Source: Rugalucina vietnamica (taxonomy: Eukaryota; Mollusca; Bivalvia; Lucinida; Lucinidae). Taken from it: a DNA stretch of 64,000 nucleotides. Both the position numbers and the translations under genes were made by a program. The notes under the pieces were generated by a model, which ran no database searches, had not been told where the DNA came from, and was given only the letters and a program-made list of their open reading frames with translations. Each line of letters starts with the position of its first letter. Position 1 is the stretch's first letter. Shown one piece after another: positions 12,621 through 42,851 of this stretch. The DNA lies in NCBI GenBank assembly GCA_964017185.1, contig OZ024876.1:35379278-35443277 (forward strand), written 5' to 3'.

Positions 12621-14398
12621 CTAATAGGTAAAGATACCAGATTAGAAACAATCAATGGAAACCAAATCTGAGATCTCCAATGAGGAATAATCATTAAAGC
12701 TTTCTGAACTTTGTCAGTAATGATTTTTGTGACCACTTTGCCCACTAAATTGAAGGGACAAAAGATATATGGTAAAAATTCATGCCATGAAAAAGAAAAA
12801 GCATCATTTCTATATGCACCAACCTCAGGAAACCATGAAACAAAAGTATCTAACTGTTTGTTTAGTCGGCTAGCAAATAAATCCACATCAGGTACAAAAC
12901 ACTGTCTACACAACCTGTCAAAAATCTGCCTCTTCAACATCCACTCCGTGGAATCCGAGAAATGTCTACTTAAAAAATCAGCTCGTAAATTTGAGGCTCC
13001 CGCAATATGGACTGCTGAAATAAATATGTTTCGTGATAAACACCAATGCCAAATTTCACTCGCTAGATAATCCATGTCAGGGGAGGTTATTCCACCTAAA
13101 TCTCTGATATATTTTACAGCAGAAACGTTATCACACTGAATTTCAATATGTTTATTTCTTACATCAGCATAAAGTGACTGCAAAGCAAAATATATGGCCT
13201 TAAGCTCTAAGTAATTGATAGAAAATACCAGTTCTTGCTCCGACCATCTGCCATTTGTTGATTTACCTGTGGAAACATCATAAGCACCCCATCCTAGAAA
13301 AGAAGCATCACTTCTGCAAGTAATAGAAACATTATCCGGACGAATTCTTTTACCATTTTTCTTGTCCACATTGTCTTTCCACCATTGCAATTCTTCTCTG
13401 CTTCTGACTGACAGATTCACAGAGTTCTCGAAGTTCCAGGTACCATCAAGTGCTATAATCTTATCCCTTTCAAGACTTCTGTAATGGAGAGGTCCTTCAA
13501 AAACAGCATAAAAAGCATTCAATACAAGTCCAATAAAGGATGCTAATAACCGTGCAGAAATGATCTCCTGCTCAAGCAAAAAATGTGCTAAATTCTTGAT
13601 TTTCTTAACCTTTTCCTCTGGTAAAATCACCAAAAACTTCTCAGAATCTATAATAAAACCGAAAAAAGTGATTCTCTCAACAGGATATAACACAGACTTT
13701 TTCTTGTTGATAGTAAACCCTAGAGATTCCAAAACACTAACCATAGTCTCGGTATTGTTAAGACACACTTGAAAATTTCTGTCCATGTTCAAAGAATCAT
13801 CAATATAGTAAGCACAACGGATGCACTGTTGTCTGAACCAAGCGTAAATAGGTTTTAAAATTTTAGTAAAAACTTTTGGCGCACTGGCTAATCCAAAAGG
13901 TAAAACGACAAATTCGTACAATTGGCCGTCCCATATGAATTTGAGAAATTTGAAAAAACCTGGATTAATCGGACAAGACAGATAAGCTTCTTGCAAGTCG
14001 ATACTCGTGAAAAAATCACCTTCTTGAATCAAATCCAGTATCAGTTTAAAAGTTTCTTGTTTAAAATGTTCATATTTAATGAAAAAATTCAAATATCTCA
14101 AATTAATAATAGGTCTATACTTCCCATTGGGTTTAGGCACAATGAAAATATTGGAAATAAATTGATTATCTTCCCATTTAGAAAACTGAATAGCACCTTT
14201 GTTTAACAGCTCAGAAACTTCATTGTCAACAATTAACTTTTGTTCATTTGAAAAACTAATCTCACTTGGAAAAGACCATTGAAAAGGAGTACTTTCAAAC
14301 TCTAAACAATAACCGGATACAGTCTGCAATATCCAGGGATCTGATGTATACTTTTTCCAGTTTTCAAGGCATAATTTCAACTTTCCAACAGCACTCAC
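12365..14398 (-). CDS. DIRS reverse transcriptase / RNase H polyprotein
   Basis: 677 codons from a GTG at 14398; the frame stays open further upstream, overlapping the end of gag in the -1 frame, so it may be expressed by frameshifting. RT motifs: TSIDLQEAY (131-139), LPFGLASAPKVF (166-177) and the catalytic YIDD box (198-201). RNase H follows, with acidic residues near D364 (CRSDASFLGWG), E398 (NYLELKA) and D423 (IQCDN). The C-terminal segment with DVDLFASRLN and DAFSFSW resembles the region after RNase H in DIRS elements, often described as methyltransferase-like. The last 85 or so codons overlap the recombinase frame. No in-frame stop or obvious missing catalytic residue. Confidence 0.92.
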   Translation of the reverse strand: MSAVGKLKLCLENWKKYTSDPWILQTVSGYCLEFESTPFQWSFPSEISFSNEQKLIVDNEVSELLNKGAIQFSKWEDNQFISNIFIVPKPNGKYRPIINLRYLNFFIKYEHFKQETFKLILDLIQEGDFFTSIDLQEAYLSCPINPGFFKFLKFIWDGQLYEFVVLPFGLASAPKVFTKILKPIYAWFRQQCIRCAYYIDDSLNMDRNFQVCLNNTETMVSVLESLGFTINKKKSVLYPVERITFFGFIIDSEKFLVILPEEKVKKIKNLAHFLLEQEIISARLLASFIGLVLNAFYAVFEGPLHYRSLERDKIIALDGTWNFENSVNLSVRSREELQWWKDNVDKKNGKRIRPDNVSITCRSDASFLGWGAYDVSTGKSTNGRWSEQELVFSINYLELKAIYFALQSLYADVRNKHIEIQCDNVSAVKYIRDLGGITSPDMDYLASEIWHWCLSRNIFISAVHIAGASNLRADFLSRHFSDSTEWMLKRQIFDRLCRQCFVPDVDLFASRLNKQLDTFVSWFPEVGAYRNDAFSFSWHEFLPYIFCPFNLVGKVVTKIITDKVQKALMIIPHWRSQIWFPLIVSNLVSLPIRLPRHRDLLTLPHNNQVHPLAKKMRMVAVLLSGDSLRVAEFQSQLLRSSSAHGRKELESNMPQPGTSGIFGVYGDVAVPLIQLKR

Positions 14399-14406
14399 CT
14401 GTTGAG

Positions 14407-15564
14407 TTAAGTCCCCTCGTTTGGGGCAGAAGTAACAGTAGCAGTGGGAGCCTGCCTTTTCCCTTTCATAGGATTGAATCCCCGAGAGTTACCTCTGAAA
14501 GAATTGCCATACTGGAACTGGCCATAAGGGTTGTAATACTGGGGATAACCACCAAACTGAGCTGCATAGGGATGAAATCTGTTTCCACCTCTCTGACCTC
14601 TGGCACCTCTGAAAAAGCCCCTGCCTCGCTGGGGTCTAAACCCAAAGTAATTCTCCTTTCCTACAGACACTGAAGAATCACAATTCTTAATTTCTTTAGA
14701 TAACTCATCGCCAAATAATTGGGATGTAATTGGAACAGCATAGTTACACAAACTTTGATACTTTTTCTTTAAATGAGGTCTAATCATATATCTGCGTCTG
14801 ATTGAAAGATTATACTGAACCTGACCCATAAGTGTAAGAGTGTCAGTAATGATATCTTTAACTTGTGAATTACAACCAATCAGACCCTTAAGAGTATCTG
14901 CAAGTTGAATGACAGAACCGATGCCAGCGGCAACGAGATTTTGAGTATCAGAAAAACATTTGTCATAGCCCTGAGCACGCTTACTCATAACGCTCCAAAA
15001 TTCTGAATTCACTCTTGGAGCTGGTAATTTATCGCAGTTTTCTGGAATCTTAAATTTGTCTATAATGGGGTCAGTTACACATAGAGCTGAGCATGCCGTA
15101 TTTATCAATTTAGCCAAAGACTCTGAAATAGCAGGGCCTTTATCAGGTTGCTTTAATTTTGGAAGTTTCCATTCATCATTATCAAGATCTTCCACAGTTT
15201 CACTGTGGCTTGACGGTAATTCTGAAGAATCATTCGCTTCACCAAAAAGTGCATTTCTTAAATCATTGGCAATAGCCACAGGCTTTAACGGCTTCTTTTT
15301 TGGACGATTTTTGATAGGGGCTGGTACCAGCTCCGAATCTGAGTCCTCGGTTAGTTCAACAGTTAAACCAGGATAATTATTCAAATTACACCCAAAAACT
15401 GCTTCCATATCTTCATCATAAGCATACTCATACGGCTGAGGATTGACCCCTAATAAATCTCTGAATTGTTCAATATCCTGAGGCGTTAATTTCTCAATTA
15501 ACTCTGAAAGTGGACTCTTTTCCGAATTAGTGTTATGTTCATTTATAGGTGCACTCGCACTCAA
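14407..15564 (-). CDS. DIRS gag-like ORF1, C-terminal piece
   Basis: Open for 385 codons, but with no ATG at its start. The frame runs upstream into the stop of the preceding piece (15572-15769), suggesting a single ORF1 split by a one-base shift in the A-rich stretch near 15570-15595. The N-terminal half is acidic and includes a PPKKK-like basic patch. The C-terminus is rich in Arg-Gly and aromatic residues (RGRGFFRGARGQRGG, then GYPQYYNPYGQFQYG), fitting a nucleic-acid-binding capsid-like protein. Assignment as gag rests mainly on position before RT. Confidence 0.75.
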   Translation of the reverse strand: MSASAPINEHNTNSEKSPLSELIEKLTPQDIEQFRDLLGVNPQPYEYAYDEDMEAVFGCNLNNYPGLTVELTEDSDSELVPAPIKNRPKKKPLKPVAIANDLRNALFGEANDSSELPSSHSETVEDLDNDEWKLPKLKQPDKGPAISESLAKLINTACSALCVTDPIIDKFKIPENCDKLPAPRVNSEFWSVMSKRAQGYDKCFSDTQNLVAAGIGSVIQLADTLKGLIGCNSQVKDIITDTLTLMGQVQYNLSIRRRYMIRPHLKKKYQSLCNYAVPITSQLFGDELSKEIKNCDSSVSVGKENYFGFRPQRGRGFFRGARGQRGGNRFHPYAAQFGGYPQYYNPYGQFQYGNSFRGNSRGFNPMKGKRQAPTATVTSAPNEGT

Positions 15565-15571
15565 ATTTCCA

Positions 15572-15769
15572 CTATTTTTCGACTTTTTTTGAGGCTTTTT
15601 GAGACGTCTTCGACGCCGCCTTTTGTTTACCTTTTTTGGCTTTTTTAGCTGCTTGTAACTCCTCCTCTCTCAGAGGAGAAAACCCAGAAAAAGAACCAGA
15701 AGAATTAGAAAACTCTCCATCATTTGGGTCAATCAAATTGAGGCAACCAGAATCATCTTCTGCTGCCAT
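15572..15769 (-). CDS. DIRS gag-like ORF1, N-terminal piece (frameshifted)
   Basis: Starts at ATG 15769 in a good context (A at -3, G at +4), reading MAAEDDSGCLNL; an upstream in-frame ATG lies at 15835. The short product is acidic at first, then Lys/Ala-rich (KKAKKGKQKAASK), ending VEK before TAG. Reading would continue into the 14407-15564 frame after a +1 shift, so this is probably the true beginning of ORF1 in an intact relative. The shift could be real decay or a homopolymer sequencing error. Confidence 0.65.
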   Translation of the reverse strand: MAAEDDSGCLNLIDPNDGEFSNSSGSFSGFSPLREEELQAAKKAKKGKQKAASKTSQKASKKVEK

Positions 15770-24477: not shown

Positions 24478-24553
24478 ATGGCCATGATGTCGTGGAAGTC
24501 TCTGGTTTCGGTTACAAGACAGTACACCTGCCTCGTTGTACCAAGAAATGAAG
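24478..24553 (+). CDS. MRPS11: MRPS11 coding exon 1
   Basis: 76 nt, phase 1 end (GAAG|GTATTT). It encodes the predicted targeting peptide. The preceding TTGTTTGCAG suggests the exon may be spliced from an upstream UTR exon. Confidence 0.85.
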
Positions 24554-27500
24554 GTATTTGCTGTAGTTTAACAGAATATTTTGACATAGAGGTACTAAGG
24601 AGCCGCTTCACAAGAAAACCAGTTTTCCTATAAGCTCACATTGTGAGCTAAATAAACAAAATCAACATGGAATGCATATGGAAAAACAAAGGCGCAGATA
24701 AGCTGTGTTGTAACTGCACAGTTAGTAACTGCACAGCTAACTGTGCAGAATCAGCCCCTTTGTTTTCGCAACACAGACACTCAGACAGGACAATCTCTTC
24801 TTCTTGAATCCGAAATTTCAAGCTTCTAGCCTTCTCTGGCTGTACAGGCTGGTTGGTGTCAGAGCCCGACACTGTTTGTCACTTATGTGTACATGTATCT
24901 TTTTTTTCTCTATCAATAAACATAGATATCTCTAAGGCCACTGGGCCAATTGCTATTAAAGTTTATCAGAAGCATCAATGGGGTTTGGGAAAGGTTGTGT
25001 CAGGTTTAAGGCCAGGTTGGATCTGAACTCTGGTCTCCATGGCAACAGATAGCTCCCATAGACTTACAATGGGAAAAACAAATTTTTCCCAATTCAGACA
25101 AAATGCGGCTAATCTTCCCAATGCTAAGGACCCCTGGCCCCATTCCAAGATATTGTAGTGAGAGCCCTGTAGGTTGCTATTACATGTTTTTGTGAGAAAC
25201 GTTGACCATATCTGCAGTAACTGACTAACTCCAGTGCTTAACACACAATCAATATTGGAAAAGCAGCCCGGTAACCAGCACACACACACCCCACCCCCAT
25301 TTCTGATTGGCCAGAAAATGGAGGGTATTACTGGTTACTTGCTTTACTATTAAAATAATGGTTGTTTGTAATCTGGAATCCAGTCATTAATGCAGATATG
25401 AGCCACATCATGAGAAAACAAACGTTTTGCATAGCCGAAAACAAAGGCGCTGATGAGCTTCACAGTAACTGCAAAGCTGATCAGTGGCTTTGTTTTCGCT
25501 ACACGGATAGTATGATTCCTCTACTTTCTAAATCCAAAATTTCCAGCCTCTAGCCATCTTCGGTACATGTACAGCTCGGTTTGTGTCGGCCCTGTTAAGA
25601 AACCACTGTGTTGCTTTTCTAGTACTGTGGCTCATATGAGTCATAGCAAGGTGGAAAGTGACAACCTTCCCTAAAAATTCAGACACACAGTACATGCTGA
25701 TCTCTATCTTCATCATTACGAAAACTTGCCCATGCAATATACAGATATTCTTTTCAGCTGTAAAAATTGAAATATTTCATTGGAAAAATTTTGATTTTTT
25801 TAATATTCTTGCTCAAAACATAGATTGTGGGTACACGTTAGAACCGCCTTGCAGAGGAGGTTCTAACGAGTACCCACAATCTATGTTTTGGATCAAAGGT
25901 AAGAAAAATAGGTATACACATGTAAGCCCCACTTGTACTATATAAAAGTGGGGTATGAGGGGGTATACATTTCATGGATGTTTTTCTGATGTTCAGTCAA
26001 CTTCAGTGTGTAGGTAATTTGTCGTAATAAAATGGGTTTCTTTTCCAGTTTACTTGAGGCTAAGAGCATGTGGATTCCATAACAGTCCAGTACATCGGTA
26101 CATTGGGAAAGAAAAGTCCTTGACAAAAAAAGGTGTGCAGAAGTCGATAGAGACGCAAGTGGAACAGGGAATGGGGGTTATCACAGTACTGAGGAAAGAT
26201 GAGCTGCAGTAAGTTCCCATACCTGGTCTCGATGTTATAAAACTTTTTTTTCATGCTCAACTCATTTGAGCATAAAATTTAAAATGCTCATAAGTGACAA
26301 AATAGCCCAAATAAATGGAAATTTCAGGTTTAGGTCACCATAACCTGTAATTTATCCTGATCATAAATGTTAAAATGCCAACAATTGTTGGCATTTTAAC
26401 ATTTATGAGCAGGATGAATTTTAGTCTCAGCTGAGTTGAGCATGAAAAAAGTTTTATAACCTCGGGGCCAGAACATTTCTTTGCCGTTTAACTTACCAGT
26501 CAACAGTTGAAACAATTTTTAGCTCGACTGCACGAAGTGCATAGAGCTATTGCAGTCACCCCGGTCGTCCACGTTCCCGTTCCCGTGCGCGTGCGCGTTC
26601 CCGTGCGCGTCACACTTGCGTTAAAGTTTTCTAGAAGTCCATATCTTGACAACCACTCATCAGAAAGCATTCATACTTGGACCATAGATACCCTGTAGGG
26701 TTAGCTTATATTCCATGGCATCGGGCCCCTGGGTCCAGGCCAGGGGGTGGGGCTGGAGGTTAAAATCTAGAACTCCTTCAAAAATGGCAATTCTTGTGTT
26801 AAAGTTTTTCTAGAAGTCCATATCTTGACAACCACTCATCAGAAAGCATTGATACTTGGGCCAATGACACCCTGTAGGGTCAGCTTTCATTCCATGGCAT
26901 CAGATCCCTGGGTCCATGCCAGGGGGTGGGGCTAGAGGTTAAAATCTAGAACACCATTAATAATTATGGCTTTTCTGTGATATAGTATTCTAGAAGTCTA
27001 TATCTTGAAAACTTTTTATCAGAGGGCTTTCATACTCGGACCATAGGTACCCTGTAGGGTTGAGTTTCATTTCATGGCATCGGATCTCTGGGTCCATGCC
27101 TGGGGGTTGGGGCTAGAGGTTAAAAACTAGAACACTGTAAAAAATAGATGTACTGCTGTGTAACTTTTAGAAGGAGTCTATATCTTGACAACAACTTATC
27201 ATAAAGCATTCATACTTCATACACTTTAGGTTCCATGACATCGGACCTCTGGGTCGGCGTCAGGGGGCGGGGCTAGAGGTCAAAATCTAGAACTCCCTGA
27301 TTTTTTTTTTTCTTTTTATTTCTTAATAGAAACAACTTAGGAAGATGGTTGGTCATTCATCTTTTGACTTTGTGACACTGACATGTGTGTCATGACTGTA
27401 AGGGTCTGTTGACCTACTTTCCATGGTTCAGTGATTTTGCCTTATAACTTGACACTCAATTAGTATATTTTCTTACTTCTTTCAGATTATGAGTGAGTAC

Positions 27501-30500
27501 AATCAAGCCTTTGACCCCGATATACTTATAGGTCACTGTGACCTAATTTCATGGTTCAGTGATTTTGCCTTATATCTTGACACTCAATTAGTATATTTTC
27601 ATACTTTTTTCAGATTATGAGTGAGTATGACCAGACCTTTGACCCCAATATACTTATAGGTCACTGTGACCTAATTTCACGGTTCAGTGACTTTGCCTTA
27701 TATCTCGGCACTCAAGTGGTTTATGAACAAACTTCTTTCACACACTGTTTGCGTATGACAAGACCTTTGACCCTAAAGTAGTCCTAGGTCAATATGACCT
27801 TATTTCATGGTTCAGTGATTTTCCTTTATATCTCGGCCCTCAATTGGTATATGAACATACTTCTTTCACGATATGTTTGCGTATGACAAGACCTTTGACC
27901 GTAAAGTATTCCTGGGTCACTGTGACCTAATTTCATGGTTCAGTGACTTTGCCTTATATCTCGACACTCAGTTGGTATTTTGTCATACTTCTTTCTGATT
28001 ATGAATGAGTTTGACCAGACCTTTAACACAAACATACTTATAGGTCACTATGACCTTATTTCATGGTTCAGTGATTTTGCTTTATATCTCAACACTGAAT
28101 GGGTATATGATCATATTTCTTTCACATTATGAGTAAGTATCACTAGACCTTTAACCCTGAAATACTTATAGGTCAGTGTGAACTTATTTCACGGTTCAGT
28201 GATTTTGCCTTGTGTTTTGGCACTCAGTTGGTATATGAACACACTTCTTTCACAATATGAGTGAAACCTTTAAATCTTAGGTAGTTATAGTTATCTTTCA
28301 TGGTTCAGTGATTTTGCCTTATTGCATGATAGCAAAAAGATGTATGAGCATAATGCTTTGGGTTACTGGTTGGGTTTGGCCTTATGTTTGACAAAGGTCA
28401 GAAGCAGTCGAGCACGCTGTCCTGCGACAGCTCTTATTCACATATTGTTGAGAAGAAGTGGCTAAAGTACTGCTTCTTGCTTTGTGTGTATTAATCAGTG
28501 CTATGGGGACTTCCTATCTTGCTTAAGGCCCAGACAGGCATAAATGACCTTGGCCAAAGGCCATATTTCAAAGACTAAATCTCAGGTGAGCTTTCTCAGG
28601 TCCATTGGCCCTCTTTTTTTTTTTTTTTTTTTTTTGTTGTTGTTGTTGTTGTTGTTCTAATGCTCATTATTACTCTTGACATGCGGCGTTGCTTTACAAC
28701 ACCACCGGAACGAAAATTAACGCTCTTATGTCGTGCCTTTTTGAACTGGAGAAAGCTGTAGCTTTTACGTCCTTTAGTACGAATGTTACATTTGTCTCCA
28801 TTAAAGACTGCGACAAATTTTCACCAAAACTCAGAAAATGAGAATTTCTGTCGTAAAAGGCATTTATTGTTATTCTTGCGTCAGTCGCAACTTGAAATGG
28901 GACGTGTGTTTGCACCACGATGTTACGTTACGTCGTGGAAAATACCAAAAACTCACTACCACACATAGCAAATCCTCAAATAGCACGAAAACGAGCACGG
29001 TTGTCAAGGACTTTCTTTCAAGCAACTTGTTCCAAAGTGATTCACTCAGAATATCGTTTTTTAAAAATATTTCATCATGGAATTTAGGAGAAAAATATGT
29101 TTATGTGCGAAATCTGACATCTATTTCCCGTTTCCCCATTGAGTTTAATGGCAAAAATGGTGTTTTTGGATTGCCTGTAGCTCAAAAACTAATCCTGTAT
29201 TACAGTGTAGTCAAGGAATATTTTTGCATATTCCAATGGGGGAGCATTTAATACATTGTAAATAGTAAAGACACACAGTTGCGAATTAGTCAGATCAATT
29301 ATGAAAACTTGCCCATGCAGTATGCAGAGATTTTTTGAGCTTTAAAAATTGAAAATTTTCAGCTGAAAAAATAAATGATATTTTTCTTATTTTTGTTCAA
29401 AACATAAATTGTGGGTACATGTTAGAACTGCCTAGCCAAGGCGGCTCTAACGAGTGCCCACAATCTATGTTTTGGAGCAAAAATAAGAAAAATAGGTATA
29501 CCCCAGCATACCACCCCAGTTTTGCTATATAAAAGTGGGGTTCAAAGGGGACGTGTTTTCGTGATCTGTGTATGGCTGTCATCACAGTTACCAGGGATGT
29601 CTCTCTTGAAATAAAGCCTTTACATGAGCAATTGTGTGAGAAAACCAACAATTTGGGTTTCCGACCAGGTCGGACACAAACTAGCCTGTTCAGTCACAGA
29701 AGCAGGCTAGACACTTGAAATTTTGGACTTATTAAGATGAGGCATCATACCATCTTTGGAGCAAAAACAAAGGAGCTGATCAGCTGTGCAGTTACTGCAC
29801 AGCTGATCTGCGTTTTTGTTTTGCATATGCAAATTTTTGTTTTTGCAGCTGCTCAGTCATTATTAACAATGCTGATTTGTTCTAGACCAGGAGTGATTTT
29901 TCCCTCCAAAGAAACTGCTACCTCTCTGATAGATGGTGTAAAGTTTGATGAAATACCGATCCTACATGTAAAAGCAACGAAAAACAACACCACAGCCTCT
30001 TGTGATAAATATGATGGTAAGTACACCAACACCATAGCCTCTTGTGATAAATATGATGGTAAGTAGACCAACACCACAGCCTCTTGTGATAAATATGACG
30101 GTAAGTACACCAACACCATAGCCTCTTTTGATAAATATGATGGTAAGTACACCAACACCATAGCCTCTTTTGATAAATATGATGGTATAACACCAACACC
30201 ACAGCCTCTTGTGATAAATATGATGGTAAGTACACCAACACCATAGCCTCTTGTGATAAATATGATGGTAAGTACACCAACACCATAGCCTCTTGTGATA
30301 AATATGACGGTAAGTACACCAACACCACAGCATCTTGTGATAAATATGATGGTAAGTACACCAACACCATAGCCTCTTGTGATAAATATGATGGTAAGTA
30401 CACCAACACCATAGCCTCTTGTGATAAATATGATGGTAAGTCAGCCTCTTGTGATAAATATGATGGTAAGTACATCAACACCACAGCCTCTTGTGATAAA

Positions 30501-33500
30501 TACATGGTGGTAAGTACACCAACACCATAGCCTCTTGTGATAAATATGATGGTAAGTACACCAACACCATAGCCTCTTTTGATAAATATGATGGTAAGTA
30601 GACCAACACCACAGCCTCTTGTGATAAATATGACGGTAAGTACACCAACACCATAGCCTCTTTTGATAAATATGATGGTAAGTACACCAACACCATAGCC
30701 TCTTTTGATAAATATGATGGTATAACACCAACACCACAGCCTCTTGTGATAAATATGATGGTAAGTACACCAACACCATAGCCTCTTGTGATAAATATGA
30801 TGGTAAGTACACCAACACCATAGCCTCTTGTGATAAATATGACGGTAAGTACACCAACACCACAGCATCTTGTGATAAATATGATGGTAAGTACACCAAC
30901 ACCATAGCCTCTTGTGATAAATATGATGGTAAGTACACCAACACCATAGCCTCTTGTGATAAATATGACGGTAAGTCAGCCTCTTGTGATAAATATGATG
31001 GTAAGTACATCAACACCACAGCCTCTTGTGATAAATACATGGTGGTAAGTACACCAACACCATAGCCTCTTGTGATAAATATGGTGGTAAGTACACCAAC
31101 ACCATAGCCTCTTGTGATAAATATGACAGTAAGCACACCAACACCGTAGCCTCTTGTGATAAATATGATGGTAAGTACACCAATACCATAGCCCTCTTGT
31201 GATTAATATGACGGTAAGTACACCAACACCATAGCCTCTTGTGATAAATATGATGGTAAATACACAAACACCATAGCCTCTTGTGATAAATATGACGGTA
31301 AGTACACCAACACCATAGCCTCTTGTGATAAATATGACGGTAAGTCAGCCTCTTGTGATAAATATGATGGTAAGTACACCAACACCACAGCCTCTTGTGA
31401 TAAATACATGGTGGTAAGTACACCAACACCATAGCCTCTTGTGATAAATATGGTGGTAAGTACACCAACACCATAGCCTCTTGTGATAAATATGACAGTA
31501 AGCACACCAACACCGTAGCCTCTTGTGATAAATATGATGGTAAGTACACCAATACCATAGCCCTCTTGTGATTAATATGACGGTAAGTACACCAACACCA
31601 TAGCCTCTTGTGATAAATATGATGGTAAATACACAAACACCATAGCCTCTTGTGATAAATATGACGGTAAGTACACCAACACCATAGCCTCTTGTGATAA
31701 ATATGATGGTAAATACACAAACACCATAGCCTCTTGTGATAAATATGACGGTAAGTACACCAACACCATAGCCTCTTGTGATAAATATGATGGTAAGTAC
31801 ACCAACACCATAGCCACTTATGATAAATATGATGGTAAGTACACCAACACCATAGCCACTTGTGATAAATATGATGGTAAGTACACCAACACCACAGCCT
31901 CTTGTGATGAATATGATGGTAAGTACACCAACACCATAGCCACTTGTGATAAATATGATGGTAAGTACACCAACACCGTAGCCTCTTGTGATAAATATGA
32001 TGGTAAGTACACCAACATTACAGCCTCTTGTGATAAATACATGGTGGTAAGTACACCAACACCACAGCCTCTTGTGATAAATATGATGGTAAGTACACCA
32101 ACACCATAGCCTGTTGTGATAAATATGATGGTAAGTACACCAACACCACAGCCTCTTGTGATAAATATGACGGTAAGTACACCAACACCATAGCCTCTTT
32201 TGATAAATATGGTGGTAAGTACACCAACACCATAGCCTCTTTTGATAAATATGATGGTAAGTACACCAACACCACAGCCTCTTGTGATAAATATGGTGGT
32301 AAGTACACCAACACCATAGCCTCTTGTCATAAATATGACAGTAAGCACACCAACACCATAGCCTCTTGTGATAAATATGATGGTAAGTACACCAATACCA
32401 TAACCCTCTTGTGATAAATATGATGGTAAGTACACCAACACCATAGCCTCTTGTGATAAATATGATGGTAAATACACAAACACCATAGCCTCTTGTGATA
32501 AATATGACGGTAAGTACACCAACACCATAGCCTCTTGTGATAAATATGATGGTAAATACACAAACACCATAGCCTCTTGTGATAAATATGACGGTAAGTA
32601 CACCAACACCATAGCCTCTTGTGATAAATATGATGGTAAGTACACCAACACCATAGCCACTTGTGATAAATATGATGGTAAGTACACCAACACCATAGCC
32701 TCTTGTGATAAATATGATGGTAAATACACAAACACCATAGCCTCTTGTGATAAATATGACGGTAAGTACACCAACACCATAGCCTCTTGTGATAAATATG
32801 ATGGTAAGTACACCAACACCATAGCCACTTGTGATAAATATGATGGTAAATACACCAACACCACAGCCTCTGGTGATGAATATGATGGTAAGTACACCAA
32901 CACCATAACCCTCTTTTCATAAATATGATGGTAAGTACACCAACACCACAGCCTCTTGTGATAAATATGATGGTAAGTACACCAACACCACAGCCTCTTG
33001 TGATAAATACATGGTGGTAAGTACACCAACACCATAGCCTCTTGTGATAAATACATGGTGGTAAGTAGACCAACACCATAGCCTCTTGTGATAAATATGA
33101 CGGTAAGTACACCAACACCATAGCCTCTTGTGATAAATATGATGGTAAGTACACAAACACCATAGCCTCTTGTGATAAATATGATGGTAAGTACACCAAC
33201 ACCATAGCCTCTTGTGATAAATAAGACGGTAAGAACACCAACACCACAGCCCTCTTGTGATAAATATGACGGTAAGTACACCAACACCATAGCCTCTTGT
33301 GATAAATATGATGATAAGTACACCTGGACCTCTTTATAGCATGATTCATTACAACATGGTTTTGATATAACACGGCTCATTGCTGGACCCCAAATGGTCA
33401 TTTTAGACCGATTTTGCTATATGTCTACACATTATACTCTGGTTATAACACGGAATGGATACCTAACATGGAAATTGGCTTGGACTGCAACAATAGTGTT

Positions 33501-36500: not shown

Positions 36501-39500
36501 CAATTTTGCCGACTTTAGATATTCTTATGTTTGACTCACTTTTTAGTATTCAGGATCAATAAATGGAAATAAAAAAAAAACAGTCTATTTGTTTTCATAA
36601 TTTATTCTTGAACAAAAATTTTTAACTATATACCTTTAAATATAACAGGCAGGGTATAAGCAATGAGTTCAAATTCATAAGCAAAATGCCTGGCCAAGAG
36701 GTAGTAAAACTATTCACAACTCAGTTGAGCATTAAATTGATTGTTCACAAATATAAAAAAAGCCAAAATCAATGAAATTGAATGGCAACAATTTATCCTA
36801 CTTATAAATGTTAAAATGACATCATTTGTTGGTATTTTAACATTTATGAGCTGGATGAATTCCATGCTCAGCTGAGTGTGAAAAGTTTTATAATACTCAG
36901 TGCCATGAACAAATCAAGACAAAATACAAACACTAAAACTCAACACTATCAAGACATGCTGACCTTCAGTAAAGGTGAGTTGCTGACAACCTCCAGTCTT
37001 TATGGAGCTGAAAGGATGCATTTGATTTAATTGGAAGAATTGCAAGGACTTAGCTTGACAAGAATTGCAGCCACTCCCCATTTCACTCTGATCAGGTATA
37101 TGCTATTGCTTATTTGAAATAGCTGATTTCATACAGCCTTCTATCCTTGCAAGTCTTCCAATTGTGGAGTGCTGCAGGAAAATCAAATGCATCCCTTTCA
37201 GCTCCATCTATCTTTATCTGCCGATAGAGATGATGCCTTCTTCAAAAAACAGTTTTTGTTGGACAGTTTTCGGTCTTTTTTCGGCCGACGCCATCTTGGC
37301 GAGTTACCCAAAGAATATTTGTTAGGATGCACACGATTGGATTGCTGCGGATCTTTCGACCAATCAGATTCTATTTTACGTACCGCACGGAAGAATACGG
37401 CGGAAAAGACCGAATTTCGACGGACGTTATAAAACCCAGTACTCATTATAAAATCCGGTACTCTTAAAGGTACCGGATCAAAAAACGATGCGTCGGACGT
37501 ACGCTCGACAGGAAAAATCTTGCGTCATCACGTATTTTCTTGCGTAATATACGCGCGACGCAGAGGTAGATAAATCACTGCATATATGGTAAAAAACTCA
37601 ATTACTTTGTCTAGTGACTGTACTTGTTGACTCTCAGGTGAGCGATCGTTGCCCTTGGGCTACTTGTTTTTTTTGGTTTTGACATCAGTTATGGGTTTTC
37701 TGAGCATACTGTGGTAGTTATTCAAATTCCCATCAGGAAAGCATGTCCATGCAATATATACCTTTCATATAGAAAAACTGGTGCTTGCATGGGTATACTT
37801 ATTTTTGCTCCAAAACATAAATTGTGGGTACAGGGTGTGCTTCGTGTACCCACAATCTATGTTTTGAGCAAAAATAAGAAAAATATCAAATTTTTTCCAG
37901 TGAAAATTTTCATTTTTACAACAACAACAACAAAAAAAAAAAAAAAAAAATTAGATTGCATGGAAGTGTTTTCGTAATGCTATTTTTTTTCTTCTTCAGG
38001 TGGTGGTATTTGTATGGCATCAGCTGTAAGTACTCCTTATATACGAGCCACGTCATGAGAAAACCAACAATTTGGTTTCCGGACAGGTCCGACACAAACC
38101 AGTCTGTACAGTCACAGAAGAAGGCTAGAAGCTTGAAATTTTGGATTTAAGAAGAAGAGGGAAAAACAAACGTTGCTGATCAGCTTCGTGGTTACAGTGA
38201 AGCTTGTCTGCGCCTTTGTTTTAGCATATGCAGATTTTCAGGTTTTTTTGATGCGGCGACTTAAGATATTTCATATCTTGAAATATTTCATATCTTGAAA
38301 TATGAGCCGCTGCATAAGAAAACCAACAATCTACATATGTGAAAACAAAGGCGCCTTTGTTTTCGCTACCTGGATAATAAAATCCCTCTTCTTCCTTCAT
38401 CCTAAATTTTAAGCTTCTAGCTTTCATCTGTGACTGTACTGGCAGGTTTGTGTCAGACCTGGTCGGAAACGCAAATTGCTGGTTTTCTCATGCACAGGCT
38501 CATATATTAAACCTTTCTTTGGAGTTGATGTTTGCATGTTCTTCTATAACATTTACAGCAAACTTCTTTGTTTCCAAATTGAAAAAAATGCTTTGTCAAT
38601 CAAAGCCAAATTTCATATCAAGCTTCTTTGCATGACCCAGATGGCTGCCAGGGCTATAAATAGCATTCAACAGTACTGTTACTGCAGAGTTCTGTCTGCA
38701 ATCATGATTTAGGGGTTTTGGAAACAAAAATATGAGTTTTGGTTCAAAGTTGACCTTTTACTGATCATGCTTACAGGGTGTGCTACTGTAGGTCAATGTC
38801 ATTAAGCATACATAACTGACATAGTGGCTTAACCTTTGCAATTTGACGTGTAGATACTGTTTTCATATGATAAGTTCAGTAACACACTTGCATTACAAAA
38901 CCTGCTCTCAGCAACACAAAGTGTTTGTTGCGTTGCTTTATTCCTTAAGTATATTGACTAAGAGAAATATCCTGACAAGAAAAAAAAAATCCTACCATCG
39001 TACAGACTAAAATTATTGGAGAAAACTCGTTATGAGAGATTAGGTTTTACACTATTGATCTCTGGTGAGCATTTTCAGGACCATTGGTCTTCTGTTTTAT
39101 GATTTACAGGGTCAGATTGGGTTTAAAAATGCAAGAAAGGGTACAAATGTCGCAGCCCAGGCAGTAGGAGTCCATCTAGGGGATGTAAGTAATGTGTTTA
39201 CATCAGGAGTACATGTCCGTGTGATTTATACCCCCTTATACCCCACTTTTATATAGCAAAACTGGGGTATGCAGGGGTATACCTATTTTTCTTAATTTTG
39301 CTCCAAAACATAGATTGTGGGTACTCACAATCTATGTTTTGAGCAAAAATAAGGAAAAAAAACTCAAAACATTCCACTGAAAATTTTCATTTTTTACAAC
39401 TTTAAAAATCTATGTATATTGCATGGGCAGGTTTTTGTAATGAATCTAGGAACTGCCATAAAAATGTGTGACTGTAATTTCATTCAAAAGCCATGTTAGT

Positions 39501-42500
39501 GTTAGTTCAAAGGTCAAAAAGAATACTGTTAACAAATTTTGGTGTCATATTTTACCAAACCACACAAAAAAACAACAATTATTTAAGAAACCGGGCAGTG
39601 TGCCTCTGTGCAGATACAGCACAACCTTATTATAATGCTATCTTTTGGGTCCATAGAAGCAGACTGTGTTATAAGTGAAACCGTGTTTATAAAGAGGTTA
39701 CTTTCTATAGTCATAGAACAAAATAATTAGGAAGCGTTAAAATGAAAACCGCATTATATTGAGGCGCATTATAATGAGGTTGAAGTGTACATATACATGT
39801 ATGTCTTATTTTCCTGTAGAGCCCCAAATTAAATCTCAAAGGCCATCACATCACTGTCATCATGTTTCCCTAGCACAACCACATAGGACACTTATTAGCT
39901 CGCCTGTACGAAAGTACAGGAAGAGCTATTGCAGTCACCCCGGCGTCGGCGTCGGTGTTAGCTTCGGCGTCGGCGTTAGTGTCGGCGTCGGCGTTGCTCA
40001 AAATGTTAAAGTTTTTGGTTAAAGGTTTTATAAGGCTATATCTCTTGAACATGTTGATGGATTAAGTTGATACTTTGCATGTTGGTAGATATTGGTCTGA
40101 AGTTTTATTCTGTACCATCATGACCCACCTGGGTGACCTTGAGGTCAAGGTCACGGACTTAGAAATTTTGTGTTAAAGTTCTTGGTTAAAGTTTTTGTAA
40201 GTCTATATCTCTTGAACATGTTGATGGATCGAGTTGATACTTTGCATATTGATAGATATTGGTCTGAAGTTTTATGCTGTACCATCATGGACCACCTGAG
40301 TGACTTTTAGGTCAAGGTCACAGACTTAGAAATTTTGTGTTAAAGTTTTTGGTTAAAGTTTTTGTAAGTCTATATCTCTTGAATATGTTGATGGATCGAG
40401 TTGATACTTTGCATATTGATAGATATTGGTCTGAAGTTTTATGCTGTACCATCATGGACCACCTGAGTGACTTTGAGGTCAAGGTCACAGACTTAGAAAT
40501 TTTGTGTTAAAGTTTTTGGTTAAAGTTTTTGTAAGTCTATATCTCTTGAATATATAGATGGATCAAGTTGATACTTTGCATATTGATAGATATTGGTCTG
40601 AAGTTTTATGCTGTACCATCATGACCCACCTGAGTGACATTGAGGTCAAGGTCACAGACTTAGAAATTTTGTGTTAAAGTTTTTGTAAGTCTGTATCTCT
40701 TGAATATATAGATGGATTAAGCTGATACTTTGCATATTGATGGATATTGGTCTGAAGTTTTATGCTGGACCCATAACCACCTGAGTGACCTTGAGGTCAA
40801 GGTCACAGACTTAGAAATTTTATGTTAAAAATATTTTGGGTTAAAGTTTTTAAAGTCTATATCTTTTGAAAATGTTGATGGATCATGTTAGTATATACAT
40901 GTACTGGTTTTAAGCTATACCATCATGGCGAACCTGAGAGACCTTGAGGTCAAGGTCATGGGTCATAGATTTTAATAGATTTAGTGGCAAAGCATAAGTC
41001 AGGCGAGCTACGCTGTCCTGCGACAGCTCTTATTACCTCATTTCTTGAAGGATTGAAAAAAAAAACAACAAAAAAAAACTTTTTTACATGGAAACGGAGC
41101 ATGGTAGCCTTGTGGTGGACTGACAGACTGAATTGACTTTTATCCGTACGTAAGTGAAAAAAAAAAAATGTTACCCGATTTCCAAAAGCTGATTGTTGTG
41201 AACTTATGAATGATATCAAAATTACACTTTTTTTTTTTTGTGGTAGCGACTTGGTTTCTCACCCATGTTTTAACTTTGCTTAGATAATATTACATGAGCT
41301 TTGCAACAAGAAAACCTGTCTACAGGGTATCAAAATGTACACTGACCAGTAGATATGTAAATAATTGACAAAATATGAGTATAAACAAAATTATAACTAT
41401 TATAATTTGAGCCACGACGCGAGAAAATTGGTCTTCGGGGTTTCTGACCAGGTCCGACATAAGCCGGCCTCTGCAGTCACAGATGGCTACAGGCTGGAAA
41501 TTTTGGATTTACAAAGTAGAGGAATTGTACTATCCGTGTGGCGAAAACAAAGGTGCTGATCAGCTTCGCAGTTACTGCGAAGCTGATCTGCGCCTTTGTT
41601 TTCTCCTAAGCAAAAACCTGGTTTTCTTGCGACGCGACTCATTTATAAACTGTAATATTATAATCTTTGCTTTCCCTATATTTTGATGAGGATTGTAGTA
41701 ATACTATGAATCTTCTCTAGTCAATTGGTCTTACCTGTGCTGTTCACCGAGGCATTTGAGTCGCATCATGAGAAACCAACATTTTGCACATGCGAAAACA
41801 AAGGCACAGAACCGCAAATCTGATCAGCTCCTTTGTTTTTGCTACAGAGATAGTACAATTGTTCTACTTCCTAAATCCAGCCTCTAGCTGTCTACTATGG
41901 CTGTGTTGGACCTGATCGGAAACCACAATGCTGGTTTTCTTGTGTCGCTGCTCATTTGTCTTTTTGTATGTAATCATTTTGTATGTATGCAAAAACCTGG
42001 TGTTGCTCTGGTACATGTATATAGAGAGACGTGAATAAAATTAGCCTCGACATGAGAAAACGGGTTTTAGGGTTTGCTACCAGGTCTGACACAAGCCAGC
42101 CTGTACAGCCAAAGTAAAAGGCTAGAGGCTTGAAAATTCAGATTTAAGAAGAAGAGGGATTGCACTATCCGAGTGCTCTGATCGCCTTTGTTTTCACATA
42201 GGCAAAAATCCAGTTTTCTCATGGCGCGGCTCAAATGATACTAGTGATTTGCCTGTTGACTGATACATGTCCATGTGCTCAAGAGTTAAGCAGGTTCTTG
42301 CATGTTATGGTGTACAAATGACTGATGACCGCATAGATTTACTGTTTTTTTACATACCGGTATGCAAAGACAAAGATGTACTGTAGATCAGCTGTGTCCT
42401 CAGTCGATGAGCTTTCTTTAAATGTTTTCAGAAACTATTAAGAAGAGGTGTGGACAAAGTAAGAGTTATCGTTAAAGGCATTGGGATTGGACGTTTGGTA

Positions 42501-42851
42501 TGTTATCTTTCAAATGCCAAGCTAAAGATGCTCTAATGGGCTCTTCAAACATACATTGTACATTTCACTCCGTTGGCATATGTTGAAGTTTGTACATGTC
42601 AGAGTTTAGAACAAATATGCCGCATCATACTTTTCCTGTAGGTTTGATGTGAATTTATTTCGACTGTTTCATTGTATTGGATCATCATGTTTTACAAATG
42701 AGACCTATAATTTATTCTTCAAGCTTTTCTGTATTTCATGTTTCAGCCTTGTTTAAAGGGAATACAGTTAGCTGGGGTGAATATAGTATCAATTACAGAT
42801 AATACACCAGTGTATAACGGGAAGAGACCCAGGTCAGCACGAAGAACTTAA
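24478..42851 (+). CDS. MRPS11: MRPS11, mitochondrial small-subunit ribosomal protein uS11m (7 coding exons)
   Basis: CDS: 24478-24553, 26049-26208, 29886-30016, 38000-38025, 39110-39184, 42432-42497, 42747-42851; 639 nt, 212 residues. All introns are GT-AG and all phases agree. The N-terminus (MAMMSWKSLVSVTRQY) is basic and Ser-rich, as for mitochondrial import. The uS11 core runs from IPILHVKATKNNT through GFKNARKGTNVAAQ and VRVIVKGIGIGRL to the family C-terminus VSITDNTPVYNGKRP, SARRT. Spacing from NNT to GF equals that of human MRPS11 (25 residues), which supports the 26-nt exon 4. uS11m sits on the mitoribosome platform next to the decoding region. ATG directly follows an acceptor-like TTGTTTGCAG, so a 5' UTR exon upstream is likely but not identified. 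Introns are packed with repeats. Confidence 0.95.
24600..24870. mobile_element. MITE family A, diverged copy in MRPS11 intron 1
   Basis: GAGCCGCTTCACAAGAAAAC, AAAACAAAGGCGCAGAT, then CAGCCCCTTTGTTTTCGC; the right end decays near GTCAGAGCCCG. It starts 46 bp after the exon 1 donor. Confidence 0.7.
24905..25340 (+). mobile_element. T1 repeat, internal fragment
   Basis: ATCTCTAAGGCCACTGGGCC, GGAAAGGTTGTGTCAGG and CATAGACTTACAATGGGAA match the first T1 unit at 33850-34020. Both T1 termini are missing. Confidence 0.6.
25400..25633. mobile_element. MITE family A with ATAT target duplication
   Basis: GAGCCACATCATGAGAAAAC at the left and CTAGTACTGTGGCTC at the right. ACAAAGGCGCTGATGAGCTT pairs with AAGCTGATCAGTGGCTTTGT. 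ATAT flanks both ends. Confidence 0.85.
25714..25990 (+). mobile_element. Foldback family B, copy 3
   Basis: ATTACGAAAACTTGCCCATG at the left and TTTCATGGATGTTTTTCTGA at the right. The central GAACCGCC...GAGGTTCTAAC and CATAGATTGTGGGTACACG palindrome is well preserved. It ends about 58 bp before the exon 2 acceptor. Confidence 0.82.
26049..26208 (+). CDS. MRPS11: MRPS11 coding exon 2
   Basis: 160 nt after TTTCTTTTCCAG, ending GAGCTGCA|GTAAGT. It encodes the linker LRLRACGFHNSPVHRYIGKE through GMGVITVLRKDEL, a poorly conserved N-terminal extension of uS11m. Confidence 0.9.
26233..26460. mobile_element. Palindromic repeat family C, copy 1
   Basis: TTATAAAACTTTTTTTTCAT and CATGAAAAAAGTTTTATAAC are the terminal arms; ATGTTAAAATGCCAACAA and its complement form a central palindrome. 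It starts 25 bp after the exon 2 donor. Confidence 0.85.
26520..28437 (+). mobile_element. T3 repeat, copy b (MRPS11 intron 2), Helentron-like
   Basis: Same ends as T3a: TAGCTCGACTGCACGAAGTG and GCAGTCGAGCACGCTGTCCT with GACAGCTCTTAT. Four units near 180 bp (26610-27300) and about six near 128 bp (27420-28320), fewer than T3a, so the core expands and contracts. The flanks ATTTT and TCACA fit insertion between T residues. Confidence 0.8.
28438..28617 (+). mobile_element. T1 repeat, 3' end fragment
   Basis: CAGGTGAGCTTTCTCAGGTC followed by CATTGGCCCTC is the T1 3' end with its AGGTCC-ATT-GGCCCT hairpin. T3b appears inserted in it or beside it. A T run and (GTT)n microsatellite follow to about 28655. 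Confidence 0.6.
28656..29296. other. MRPS11 intron 2 sequence, nothing recognised
   Basis: Open on the plus strand for up to 137 codons (28838-29251), but without start context, splice signals or familiar motifs. Confidence 0.3.
29297..29565 (+). mobile_element. Foldback family B, copy 4
   Basis: ATTATGAAAACTTGCCCATG at the left and ACGTGTTTTCGTGATCTG at the right. Central AAATTGTGGGTACATGTTAG and CTAACGAGTGCCCACAATC arms. Confidence 0.8.
29625..29854. mobile_element. MITE family A, 31 bp upstream of MRPS11 exon 3
   Basis: GAGCAATTGTGTGAGAAAAC at the left, AACAAAGGAGCTGATCAGCT and AGCTGATCTGCGTTTTTGTT in the middle, GCAGCTGCTC at the right. The branch-point region of intron 2 must lie in or just after its right end. 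Confidence 0.8.
29886..30016 (+). CDS. MRPS11: MRPS11 coding exon 3
   Basis: 131 nt, acceptor GATTTGTTCTAG, donor GATG|GTAAGT. It encodes PGVIFPSKETATSL, then the start of the uS11 fold (FDEIPILHVKATKNNT) and TASCDKYD. Its last bases and donor are the template of the tandem array that follows. Confidence 0.93.
29985..33323 (+). repeat. 42-bp minisatellite made of exon 3 tail plus splice donor, ~80 units
   Basis: The first unit is the 3' end of MRPS11 exon 3 (ACACCACAGCCTCTTGTGAT, AAATATGATG) joined to its donor GTAAGTACACC. This 42-bp block repeats head to tail with few substitutions for about 3.3 kb, so nearly every unit carries GGTAAGTA. Variants include CTTTTGATAAATATG, AAATACATGGTGG, GTAAATACACA and a short unit GGTAAGTCAGCC. 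Higher-order duplications are visible: the short unit recurs at 30435, 30970 and 31339, spacings 535 and 369 bp. Because 42 is divisible by three, long frames stay open on both strands; I regard them as by-products. The last unit reads GATGATAAGTA, a lost donor. Confidence 0.97.
33321..33517. mobile_element. TA-target MITE (Tc1/mariner or pogo type)
   Basis: CACCTGGACCTCTTTATAGC and ACTATTG...TTATAAAGAGGTTGAGGTG are inverted ends flanked by TA. It sits right at the end of the minisatellite, inserted in a final unit. Confidence 0.75.
33531..33720. mobile_element. Palindromic repeat family C, partial copy 2
   Basis: GTTATAAAACTTTTTCTGTC at the left with TTGGCTTAACTGAGCATGAC; the right arm is lost. 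Confidence 0.55.
33755..35795 (+). mobile_element. T1 repeat, copy b, expanded tandem core (MRPS11 intron 3)
   Basis: Starts TAGCTCACCTGAGCCGAAGG and CCGTCCGTCCGTGCG. The core then repeats a unit of about 150-170 bp roughly ten times: AAAAATCTTCTTCTCCGAAA, GAGCTTTCATATTTTGTGTG, AGTGGTCCTCTTTATAAATC, CCCTGGGGTCCATACGGGCC. The GC-rich CGCCCCGGGGGCGTCATG segment varies most. Short open frames on either strand follow the repeat and are not genes. The 3' terminus is interrupted by the hAT-like element at 35796. Confidence 0.8.
35796..36307. mobile_element. hAT-like MITE with AGTACCTTAATTA ends
   Basis: AGTACCTTAATTA and TAATTAAGGTACT are inverted ends. The interior (AATTGGGTAA, TACGCAAATACGCAGC) matches the ends of the 47440-49170 element. 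Flanks GTGAACCC and GGAACCAA are only partly alike, so the target duplication is unclear. Confidence 0.6.
36417..36510. repeat. Repeat fragment shared with window start
   Basis: AGTGATTAATCTACCTTTGG with TGAGTCAAATTGACTCA, near-identical to 72-168. Confidence 0.65.
36701..36894. mobile_element. Palindromic repeat family C, copy 3
   Basis: AACTCAGTTGAGCATTAAAT at the left, ATGCTCAGCTGAGTGTGAAA and GTTTTATAAT at the right; AATGTTAAAATGACATC and its complement in the centre. Confidence 0.7.
37007..37204. repeat. Foldback repeat
   Basis: TGGAGCTGAAAGGATGCATT at 37010 and AATGCATCCCTTTCAGCTCC at 37185 are inverted arms, followed inward by AATTGGAAGAATTGCAAGGA against TCCTTGCAAGTCTTCCAATT. Confidence 0.7.
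37205..37730. other. MRPS11 intron 3, unclassified, with T1-like 3' end
   Basis: No gene seen. CTCAGGTGAGCGATCGTTGC with CCTTGGGCTACTTG at 37635-37670 is a variant T1-type terminus, also seen at 45570-45605. Confidence 0.4.
37731..37979 (-). mobile_element. Foldback family B, copy 5, 20 bp upstream of exon 4
   Basis: CATCAGGAAAGCATGTCCAT at the left and TGCATGGAAGTGTTTTCGTA at the right. Central GTGGGTACAGGGTGTGC and GTGTACCCACAATCTATG arms. A (CAA)n and A-run lies inside. Its end is only 20 bp from the 26-nt exon. Confidence 0.82.
38000..38025 (+). CDS. MRPS11: MRPS11 coding exon 4 (26-nt microexon)
   Basis: TTTTTTTTCTTCTTCAG|GT and GCATCAGCT|GTAAGT define it. With the G from exon 3 it encodes G-GGICMASA, filling the uS11 segment between NNT and GF with exactly the length seen in human MRPS11. 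Too short for gene finders, but needed for the frame (exon 3 ends in phase 1, exon 5 starts in phase 0). Confidence 0.88.
38045..38260. mobile_element. MITE family A, 19 bp downstream of exon 4 donor
   Basis: GAGCCACGTCATGAGAAAAC at the left; AACAAACGTTGCTGATCAGC and AAGCTTGTCTGCGCCTTTGT in the middle; GATGCGGCGAC at the right. Confidence 0.8.
38304..38501. mobile_element. MITE family A with ATAT target duplication
   Basis: GAGCCGCTGCATAAGAAAAC and TTTTCTCATGCACAGGCTC ends; ATAT on both sides. The palindrome is shortened to AAAACAAAGGCGCCTTTGTT. Confidence 0.85.
38502..39057. other. MRPS11 intron 4, nothing recognised
   Basis: No gene or named repeat seen. Confidence 0.3.
39058..39100 (+). 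mobile_element. T1 3' end fragment abutting exon 5 acceptor
   Basis: TCTCTGGTGAGCATTTTCAG and GACCATTGGTCTTCTG match T1 3' ends (compare 28580-28615). It lies within 10 bp of the exon 5 acceptor, so it forms much of the polypyrimidine and branch region. Confidence 0.6.
39110..39184 (+). CDS. MRPS11: MRPS11 coding exon 5
   Basis: 75 nt, phase 0 at both ends (ATTTACAG|GGT, GGGGAT|GTAAGT). Encodes GQIGFKNARKGTNVAAQAVG and VHLGD, the most conserved uS11 segment (GF-N-KGT-AAQ). Confidence 0.95.
39201..39442 (-). mobile_element. Foldback family B, copy 6, 16 bp after exon 5
   Basis: CATCAGGAGTACATGTCCGT at the left, GCATGGGCAGGTTTTTGTAA at the right; the inner GTGGGTACTCACAATC palindrome is shortened. 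Confidence 0.8.
39617..39787. mobile_element. TA-target MITE (mariner/pogo type)
   Basis: CAGCACAACCTTATTATAAT and ATTATAATGAGGTTGAAGTG are inverted ends flanked by TA; related to 33321-33517. Confidence 0.65.
39896..41033 (+). mobile_element. T2 repeat, copy b (MRPS11 intron 5), Helentron-like
   Basis: TAGCTCGCCTGTACGAAAGT at the left, a GGCGTCGGCGTCGGTGTTAG run, about six units near 170 bp with TGACCTTGAGGTCAAGGTCA, and GTCAGGCGAGCTACGCTGTC with GACAGCTCTTAT at the right. Flanks ACTTAT and TACCTCA fit a T|T site. Confidence 0.8.
41409..41640. mobile_element. MITE family A with ATTT target duplication
   Basis: GAGCCACGACGCGAGAAAAT and TTTTCTTGCGACGCGACTC; GCGAAAACAAAGGTGCTGAT and its complement inside. 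Confidence 0.86.
41758..41953. mobile_element. MITE family A with ATTT target duplication
   Basis: GAGTCGCATCATGAGAAACC and TTTTCTTGTGTCGCTGCTC ends, ATTT on both sides. The palindrome is shortened. Confidence 0.82.
42043..42232. mobile_element. MITE family A, diverged copy
   Basis: AGCCTCGACATGAGAAAACG and GTTTTCTCATGGCGCGGCTC ends; the palindrome is mostly deleted. Confidence 0.75.
42432..42497 (+). CDS. MRPS11: MRPS11 coding exon 6
   Basis: 66 nt, phase 0 (TGTTTTCAG|AAA, CGTTTG|GTATGT). Encodes KLLRRGVDKVRVIVKGIGIG and RL, equivalent to the uS11 V-V-KG-G-GR strand. Confidence 0.95.
42747..42851 (+). CDS. MRPS11: MRPS11 coding exon 7 (last)
   Basis: 105 nt including TAA. Encodes PCLKGIQLAGVNIVSITDNT followed by PVYNGKRPRSARRT, the uS11 signature ITD-TP--NG-RP and its basic tail. 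No clear AATAAA is seen close downstream. Confidence 0.96.
   Translation, partial: PCLKGIQLAGVNIVSITDNTPVYNGKRPRSARRT

Follow-up and report, generated by a model that had tools for sequence, protein, structure and literature searches.

We examined a 64,000-nt stretch of the genome of the lucinid bivalve Rugalucina vietnamica (assembly GCA_964017185.1, contig OZ024876.1, positions 35,379,278 to 35,443,277, forward strand), called the window below and numbered from its first base. It holds MRPS11, the gene of the mitochondrial ribosomal protein uS11m, and a minisatellite that begins inside exon 3 of this gene, runs on into the intron and repeats a strong 5′ splice site (donor) in copy after copy. 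The assembly comprises 1,089,854,562 bases in 47 contigs. A genome-wide search returned six MRPS11 exon matches, and the microexon listed below was not matched by that search. Because all six matches fall in the window, MRPS11 is a single-copy gene, and a retrocopy was not detected. The gene model has seven coding exons:

24484-24553, + strand: exon 1, coding part, donor GTATTT (tblastn with residues 1-23 of the ortholog P0001; splice model)
26049-26208, + strand: exon 2, CAG acceptor, GTAAGT donor (weak tblastn match, E 0.29; in-frame splice model)
29886-30016, + strand: exon 3, 131 nt, ending in phase 1, its last 31 nt being repeat unit 1 (tblastn E 5.8e-17; uS11m match of the joined protein)
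38000-38025, + strand: 26-nt microexon, acceptor TTCTTCTTCAG, donor GTAAGT (small-exon scan, frame, P0001)
39110-39184, + strand: exon 5 (tblastn, splice model)
42432-42497, + strand: exon 6 (tblastn, splice model)
42747-42851, + strand: exon 7 with the stop codon (tblastn, splice model)

The joined open frame of 210 residues matched the Pfam family Ribosomal_S11 (E 7e-18), and the joined protein, entered with X at residues then undefined, matched solved mitoribosome uS11m chains (best E 5e-29). At 211 aa, the ortholog P0001 shares 65% identity with the MRPS11 query. Without the microexon, about 8 residues are missing between exon 3, which ends in phase 1, and the exon at 39110, which starts in phase 0. 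The 26-nt exon, absent from the original prediction (an earlier note made from this sequence), was the sole candidate to pass a filtered scan for small exons. It restores the frame and encodes GGICMASA, whose counterpart in P0001 is GGITLISA; its omission causes a frameshift in MRPS11. A Pfam scan of the exon 3 peptide alone and an Rfam scan of the window both returned nothing.

A minisatellite across the exon 3/intron 3 junction

Tandem Repeats Finder (TRF) reported a period of 42 and 80.0 copies at 29985-33324 (score 5449, 90% matches). Splitting the array at its donors gave 80 donor positions: 66 GTAAGT, 7 GTAAAT, 3 GTAAGC, 2 GTATAA, 1 GTAAGA and 1 ATAAGT. The elements on which the argument turns are the following:

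29985-33324, + strand: 42-bp minisatellite, 80 copies of exon tail plus donor (TRF, donor splitting)
30017-30022, + strand: donor 1, GTAAGT, the putative working donor (conserved protein spacing; frame with the microexon)
30059-30064, + strand: donor 2, use of which would insert 14 in-frame residues (frame analysis)
30064-30066, + strand: in-frame TAG, reached from donor 3 or any later donor (frame analysis)
33314-33319, + strand: final copy, ATAAGT, in which the G of the donor is lost, adjoining unrepeated intron (donor splitting)

The unit consists of the last 31 nt of exon 3 followed by GTAAGTACACC, 11 nt of intron. This makeup had been proposed in the original prediction and was borne out: the last 31 nt of the exon match the array perfectly (31/31; a score of 31 was reached by 0/500 shuffles), and the preceding 31 nt do not match it (500/500 shuffles score as high or higher). 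Under a looser rule of 90% identity, 36 nt of exon 3 belong to the repeat. The accompanying claim that one sequence recurs in almost every later unit went too far, as TATGATGGTAAGTA occurs 38 times among the 80 units and the shorter GGTAAGTA 63 times. The 80 units fall into 36 types arranged in ordered blocks. Block duplications within the array are evident from stretches of 389 bp and 327 bp that recur exactly at lags of 535 bp and 369 bp, respectively.

Chance can be ruled out as the source of the cluster: the window holds 85 GTAAGT on the + strand and 13 on the − strand, and 66 of those 85 are packed into 3.3 kb. A mobile origin of the unit was also ruled against, since its exact 18-mer core, TATGATGGTAAGTACACC, has 33 exact matches in the genome, every one of them in the MRPS11 array (reversed control, 0). 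The repeat was thus not found elsewhere apart from exon homology, an eventuality that the original prediction had considered. A 24-mer of the unit had no match in viral contigs.

The donor used by MRPS11

The reading frame and the conserved protein point to donor 1. When donor 1 is joined to the microexon, 19 residues lie between the motifs NNT and xGF. We scored this spacing in the 59 proteins, among a set of 117, that matched the search expression (the other 58 are unscored), and found it in 55/59 of these homologues, mitochondrial and bacterial-type. P0001 reads NNTIASCDRHNGGGITLISAGAIGF, which aligns without gaps to the end of exon 3, the microexon and exon 5. Because P0001 has this sequence without an insert, the exon end is probably ancestral and the array derived from it. 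The reverse order, in which the exon captured a repeat, was rejected: the exon end matches P0001 and holds NNT, which is invariant in 7/7 alignment rows. We did not use the codon after NNT as evidence of polarity. The residue there is I in 49/59 scored homologues, and most array units carry an ATA codon at this place; exon 3 itself has T, as does Ruditapes P0047, which lies outside the 59 scored. From the spacing conserved in homologues, we infer that donor 1 is the right donor of exon 3. The original placement of some 80 donors directly after the real one therefore holds.

The consensus 42-bp unit makes up 14 codons that are open in the frame of exon 3. Donor 2 would add 14 residues, as had been predicted, but the 28 residues expected from donor 3 would not be made: donor 3 lies at 30101, downstream of the TAG, so that its use, or the use of any later donor, would truncate the protein. 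The array words KYTNT, TNTIASC, DKYDGK and CDKYDG occur in 0/117 proteins, a set to which the proteins of R. vietnamica itself do not belong.

We scored donors by their pairing energy with the 5′ end of U1 small nuclear RNA (snRNA). Donor 1 scored −10.5 kcal/mol and donor 2 −10.7 kcal/mol, and 63/80 array donors lie at −10.5 kcal/mol or below. Four further MRPS11 donors, not including that of exon 2, are weaker than donor 1, with scores from −5.3 to −7.0 kcal/mol (for two of them the position entered was shifted by one base). Outside the array, 7/3462 GT sites in the window are as strong as donor 1, including 2/246 in the rest of the intron. As U1 pairing is equally strong at dozens of later donors, strength does not single out donor 1.

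We also looked for traces of selection within the unit. The six donor columns have on average 1.33 deviating unit types versus 1.72 elsewhere, and 14/37 six-column windows are as low or lower. Five kinds of change occur in the donor columns, a number that 32/37 windows do not exceed. Thus, conservation of the donor bases does not clearly exceed that of the rest of the unit. In folding, four array stretches did not surpass shuffles (z 0.42 to 1.27, for pairing inside the array only). The predicted accessibility of the donor hexamers has a median of 0.009, versus 0.08 over every hexamer in the stretch; for the 19 + strand GTAAGT elsewhere the value is 0.03. At 4/5 donors checked, UGGU is most often predicted to pair with an ACCA close by. 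This pairing does not pick out the first donor, since donors 1 and 2 both show it. With donor bases not clearly better conserved and folding no better than in shuffled sequences, selection for an array function is not indicated.

Donor arrays elsewhere in the genome

We searched the genome for three strong donors spaced some 20-50 nt apart and inspected roughly the first 100 entries per list. Against reversed controls, the triplets are not enriched as such (GGTAAGTAH x3, 172 matches versus 392 reversed; AGGTAAGTB x3, 178 versus 146). Broader pattern lists were swamped by simple repeats and one interspersed family. A family of this kind, rich in GGTAAGTAGACC units (for example C1 2685582-2686205), accounted for most of the leading entries in the GGTAAGTA x3 list. 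A 200-kb sample from fixed positions on C1-C7 (4,525 N) contained 3 single sites for GGTAAGTAH and 2 for AGGTAAGTB, too few for a base rate. TRF returned 15 rows in this sample (some overlapping; period 10-100, at least 5 copies), and 0/15 had GTAAGT in the consensus.

With dispersed and simple-sequence families set aside, we picked 20 locus-specific arrays by eye and examined 19, including MRPS11 (the one at C1:59706303 was left out). Among the matches listed, 12/19 arrays begin where an open coding frame ends. An acceptor is visible upstream in 11/12 of these exon-end arrays; the GRIN3-like exon extends past the fetched stretch. A search tool backs the exon in 6/12. Besides MRPS11, the arrays are:

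L036: GRIN3-like N-methyl-D-aspartate (NMDA) receptor exon, PDB E 4e-55, unit 56
L035: EB-module exon, Pfam E 9e-7, unit 53
L044: GABBR2-like exon, PDB E 3e-8, unit 56
L046: UCHL3-like exon, PDB E 7e-4, unit 57
L047: Sld5-like exon, Pfam E 0.005, below its cut-off, two residues added, unit 50
L033: exon end by open frame and acceptor alone, unit 39
L037: exon end by open frame and acceptor alone, unit 54
L043: exon end by open frame and acceptor alone, unit 50
L045: exon end by open frame and acceptor alone, unit 53
L048: exon end by open frame and acceptor alone, unit 34
L050: exon end by open frame and acceptor alone, exon read by eye, unit 44
L038 and L041: possible exon ends
L039, L049 and L053: exon end absent or unclear
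C4 array (L042, L052) and C6 array (L051): array edge not reached

The L045 exon is presumably JADE-like; searches gave no relevant match. Pfam returned nothing for the L033 exon or for the L037, L043 and L048 peptides, and a tblastn search with the L033 exon against phages returned nothing. L049 contains many tandem TTTTCAG and CAGGTAAGT-like units, in which acceptor-like and donor-like ends are mixed. At L034, one locus of a set-aside family, an exon end was not seen.

L033 is built like MRPS11, with 31 nt of exon (34 by the looser rule; 31 by TRF) and 8 nt of intron in 10 copies. Unit lengths divisible by three occur in 4/12 exon-end arrays (42, 39, 54 and 57), as expected by chance; a unit selected to stay in frame, as the 42-bp length might suggest, is thus unsupported. 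In the other 8/12 genes donor 2 would shift the frame, so that most transcripts would have to use the exon-proximal donor if these genes work. Near-equal donors follow directly, and donor 2 equals or exceeds donor 1 in strength in 5/6 arrays scored. We infer that the exon-end arrays elsewhere in the genome are also junction tandem duplications that expanded neutrally next to a used, exon-proximal donor.

The window contains further repeats. A 33-bp minisatellite (9.7 copies, with a 66-bp higher-order unit) at 60059-60380 on the − strand adjoins the acceptor TTTACAG of an exon of NGLY1 (peptide N-glycanase). The start of this exon would lie at 60057; the last 33-bp unit holds the acceptor, and other units have acceptor-like ends. 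The repeat does not clearly include the exon start, as 901/2000 shuffles score as high. An exact 21-mer of the 33-bp unit has 5 genome matches, all at this array. Inside an apparent NGLY1 coding exon, a 72-bp unit is repeated 2.1 times (61472-61624). At 11577-15669 on the − strand lies a retroelement, presumably DIRS-like, that encodes both a tyrosine recombinase of the Phage_integrase family and a reverse transcriptase. Endonuclease and reverse transcriptase domains also occur in an open frame of 995 aa at 53859-56846 on the − strand, which presumably belongs to an element of the long interspersed nuclear element (LINE) type.

Origin of the array and known systems

Taken together, these results make it probable that the MRPS11 array arose by tandem duplication at the splice junction, grew neutrally and is tolerated because exon 3 is spliced by position at its exon-proximal donor. 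In such a scenario, a small tandem duplication across the exon 3/intron 3 junction of MRPS11, the only copy of this gene found, would have seeded the array, which would then have grown by unequal exchange or slippage, including the block copies at lags of 535 and 369 bp. Since everything beyond donor 1 would be intron, the copies could drift with no effect on the protein. Donor 1 would be chosen because it is nearest to the exon 3 acceptor and the first to be transcribed, strength not deciding; the other copies may bind U1 but would stay unspliced. Exon definition across a short exon, or first-come binding during transcription, could account for the choice. The arrays are thus probably accidental in origin and would persist because splicing takes place at the first copy. 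Nothing we observed requires the array to have a function.

An origin by junction duplication was weighed against readings in which the array works for the cell. The copies might form a landing strip for the U1 small nuclear ribonucleoprotein (snRNP), kept because bound U1 shields the 8-kb intron from premature polyadenylation or holds the transcript on chromatin. Protection by U1 against intronic polyadenylation is known (excerpt of PMC10404622), the pairing of 63/80 sites with U1 is strong, and the intron downstream contains AATAAA at 36003, 36558 and 36568 and ATTAAA at 36731. We nevertheless consider this reading improbable, because conservation does not clearly rise at the donor bases of the unit, the donor hexamers are predicted to be less accessible than average, and like arrays lie at unrelated genes in which a common theme was not seen. 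A splice-choice device, in which donor 2 yields a uS11m longer by 14 residues and donors 3-80 lead to a premature stop and decay, thereby setting the protein level, fits the 14 open codons of the consensus unit, with donor 2 in frame and donor 3 running into the TAG. It is similarly improbable: none of the 117 proteins, those of R. vietnamica not among them, contains the array words, units divisible by three are in the minority among exon-end arrays, and the insert would fall between conserved blocks of uS11. Finally, arrays of near-identical units are a known cause of assembly errors, and the length of the array could be wrong or the array absent from the animal. The ordered blocks of 36 unit types, the assembly of 1.09 Gb in 47 contigs and the same kind of array at other loci make such an artefact very unlikely. 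Among the three possibilities raised in the original prediction, an accident tolerated through the first donor fits best with the homologues, the conservation within the unit and the frame-shifting units of 8/12 exon-end arrays; the U1 sink and the splice-choice device keep the low probabilities given here.

Several points weigh against a neutral array spliced by position. Classical assays of identical tandem donors, by Eperon et al. in 1993, reportedly favour the intron-proximal site, the opposite of what we propose. Strength could help in L036, where donor 1 exceeds donor 2 by 1.1 kcal/mol. The proposed origin does not explain the length of the MRPS11 array: ranked by listed span, the second exon-end array is L048, with ~660 nt, or some 20 units. 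The neutrality test has little power because the unit types are related by descent. In a bolder and rather speculative extension, donor arrays would be a dispersed class that grows at working 5′ splice sites and is rendered harmless by the positional rule, and some of them, MRPS11 above all, would offer platforms for U1 and act as a heritable rheostat, with copy number setting how fast splicing proceeds, whether the intron stays intact or how far mRNA is retained.

The choice that a cell makes among equal 5′ splice sites has long been under study, as a rule in minigenes that contain two of them. Here, natural genes have a handful to 80 near-identical strong donors after one exon, and, judging from the conserved coding sequence, most transcripts should use the first. 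Such genes make a positional rule testable in vivo: several genes of the same animal offer replicates whose arrays differ in the length and phase of the unit, and length variants, if they exist, would be a dose series.

We compared the array with known systems as far as excerpts of the cited papers describe them; among the papers listed, our literature search found no array of this size carrying a consensus donor, and searches aimed at competing or repeated donors returned no paper. A minisatellite in Caenorhabditis elegans is linked to alternatively spliced regions (PMC4039745). In TERT intron 6, the copy number of a 38-bp variable number tandem repeat affects splicing (PMC3948165); its unit length is similar, whereas the MRPS11 array adjoins the exon and itself carries the donor. 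The U11 snRNP-binding splicing enhancer (USSE) consists of tandem U12-type 5′ splice sites that recruit U11 and are not spliced (PMC5473595). The MRPS11 array resembles it in having tandem, apparently unused 5′ splice sites that could bind an snRNP and influence splicing nearby. The USSE is a U12-type repeat with a tested function, whereas the MRPS11 array has 80 U2-type donor positions known from sequence alone, within which the tandem sites are not clearly better conserved than background.

Novel introns born by small tandem duplication are described in Drosophila (PMC2891723) and potato (PMC4974935). There, as in MRPS11, duplication copies splice-site sequence, and the copies are then usable. 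In those cases an exonic proto-splice site was duplicated and an intron was made; in MRPS11 an existing donor and exon tail would have been copied, and the intron only grows. The closest parallel is in human segmental-duplication genes, which contain internal tandem repeats at exon-intron boundaries with 27 intron modifications (PMC2812944). Like the MRPS11 array, which is made of head-to-tail units of tens of bp that include exon sequence and the splice site of a real gene, these are minisatellites on an exon-intron boundary, and the human ones can affect splicing. They are variable, with units averaging 30 bp in 4 copies, lie in duplicated genes and form novel introns (PMC2812944), whereas the arrays described here reach 80 consensus-donor copies, the largest in a conserved single-copy gene where no new intron is proposed. 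Thus, boundary minisatellites as such are already known, and what is new, so far as seen in the literature searched, is large arrays of consensus donors.

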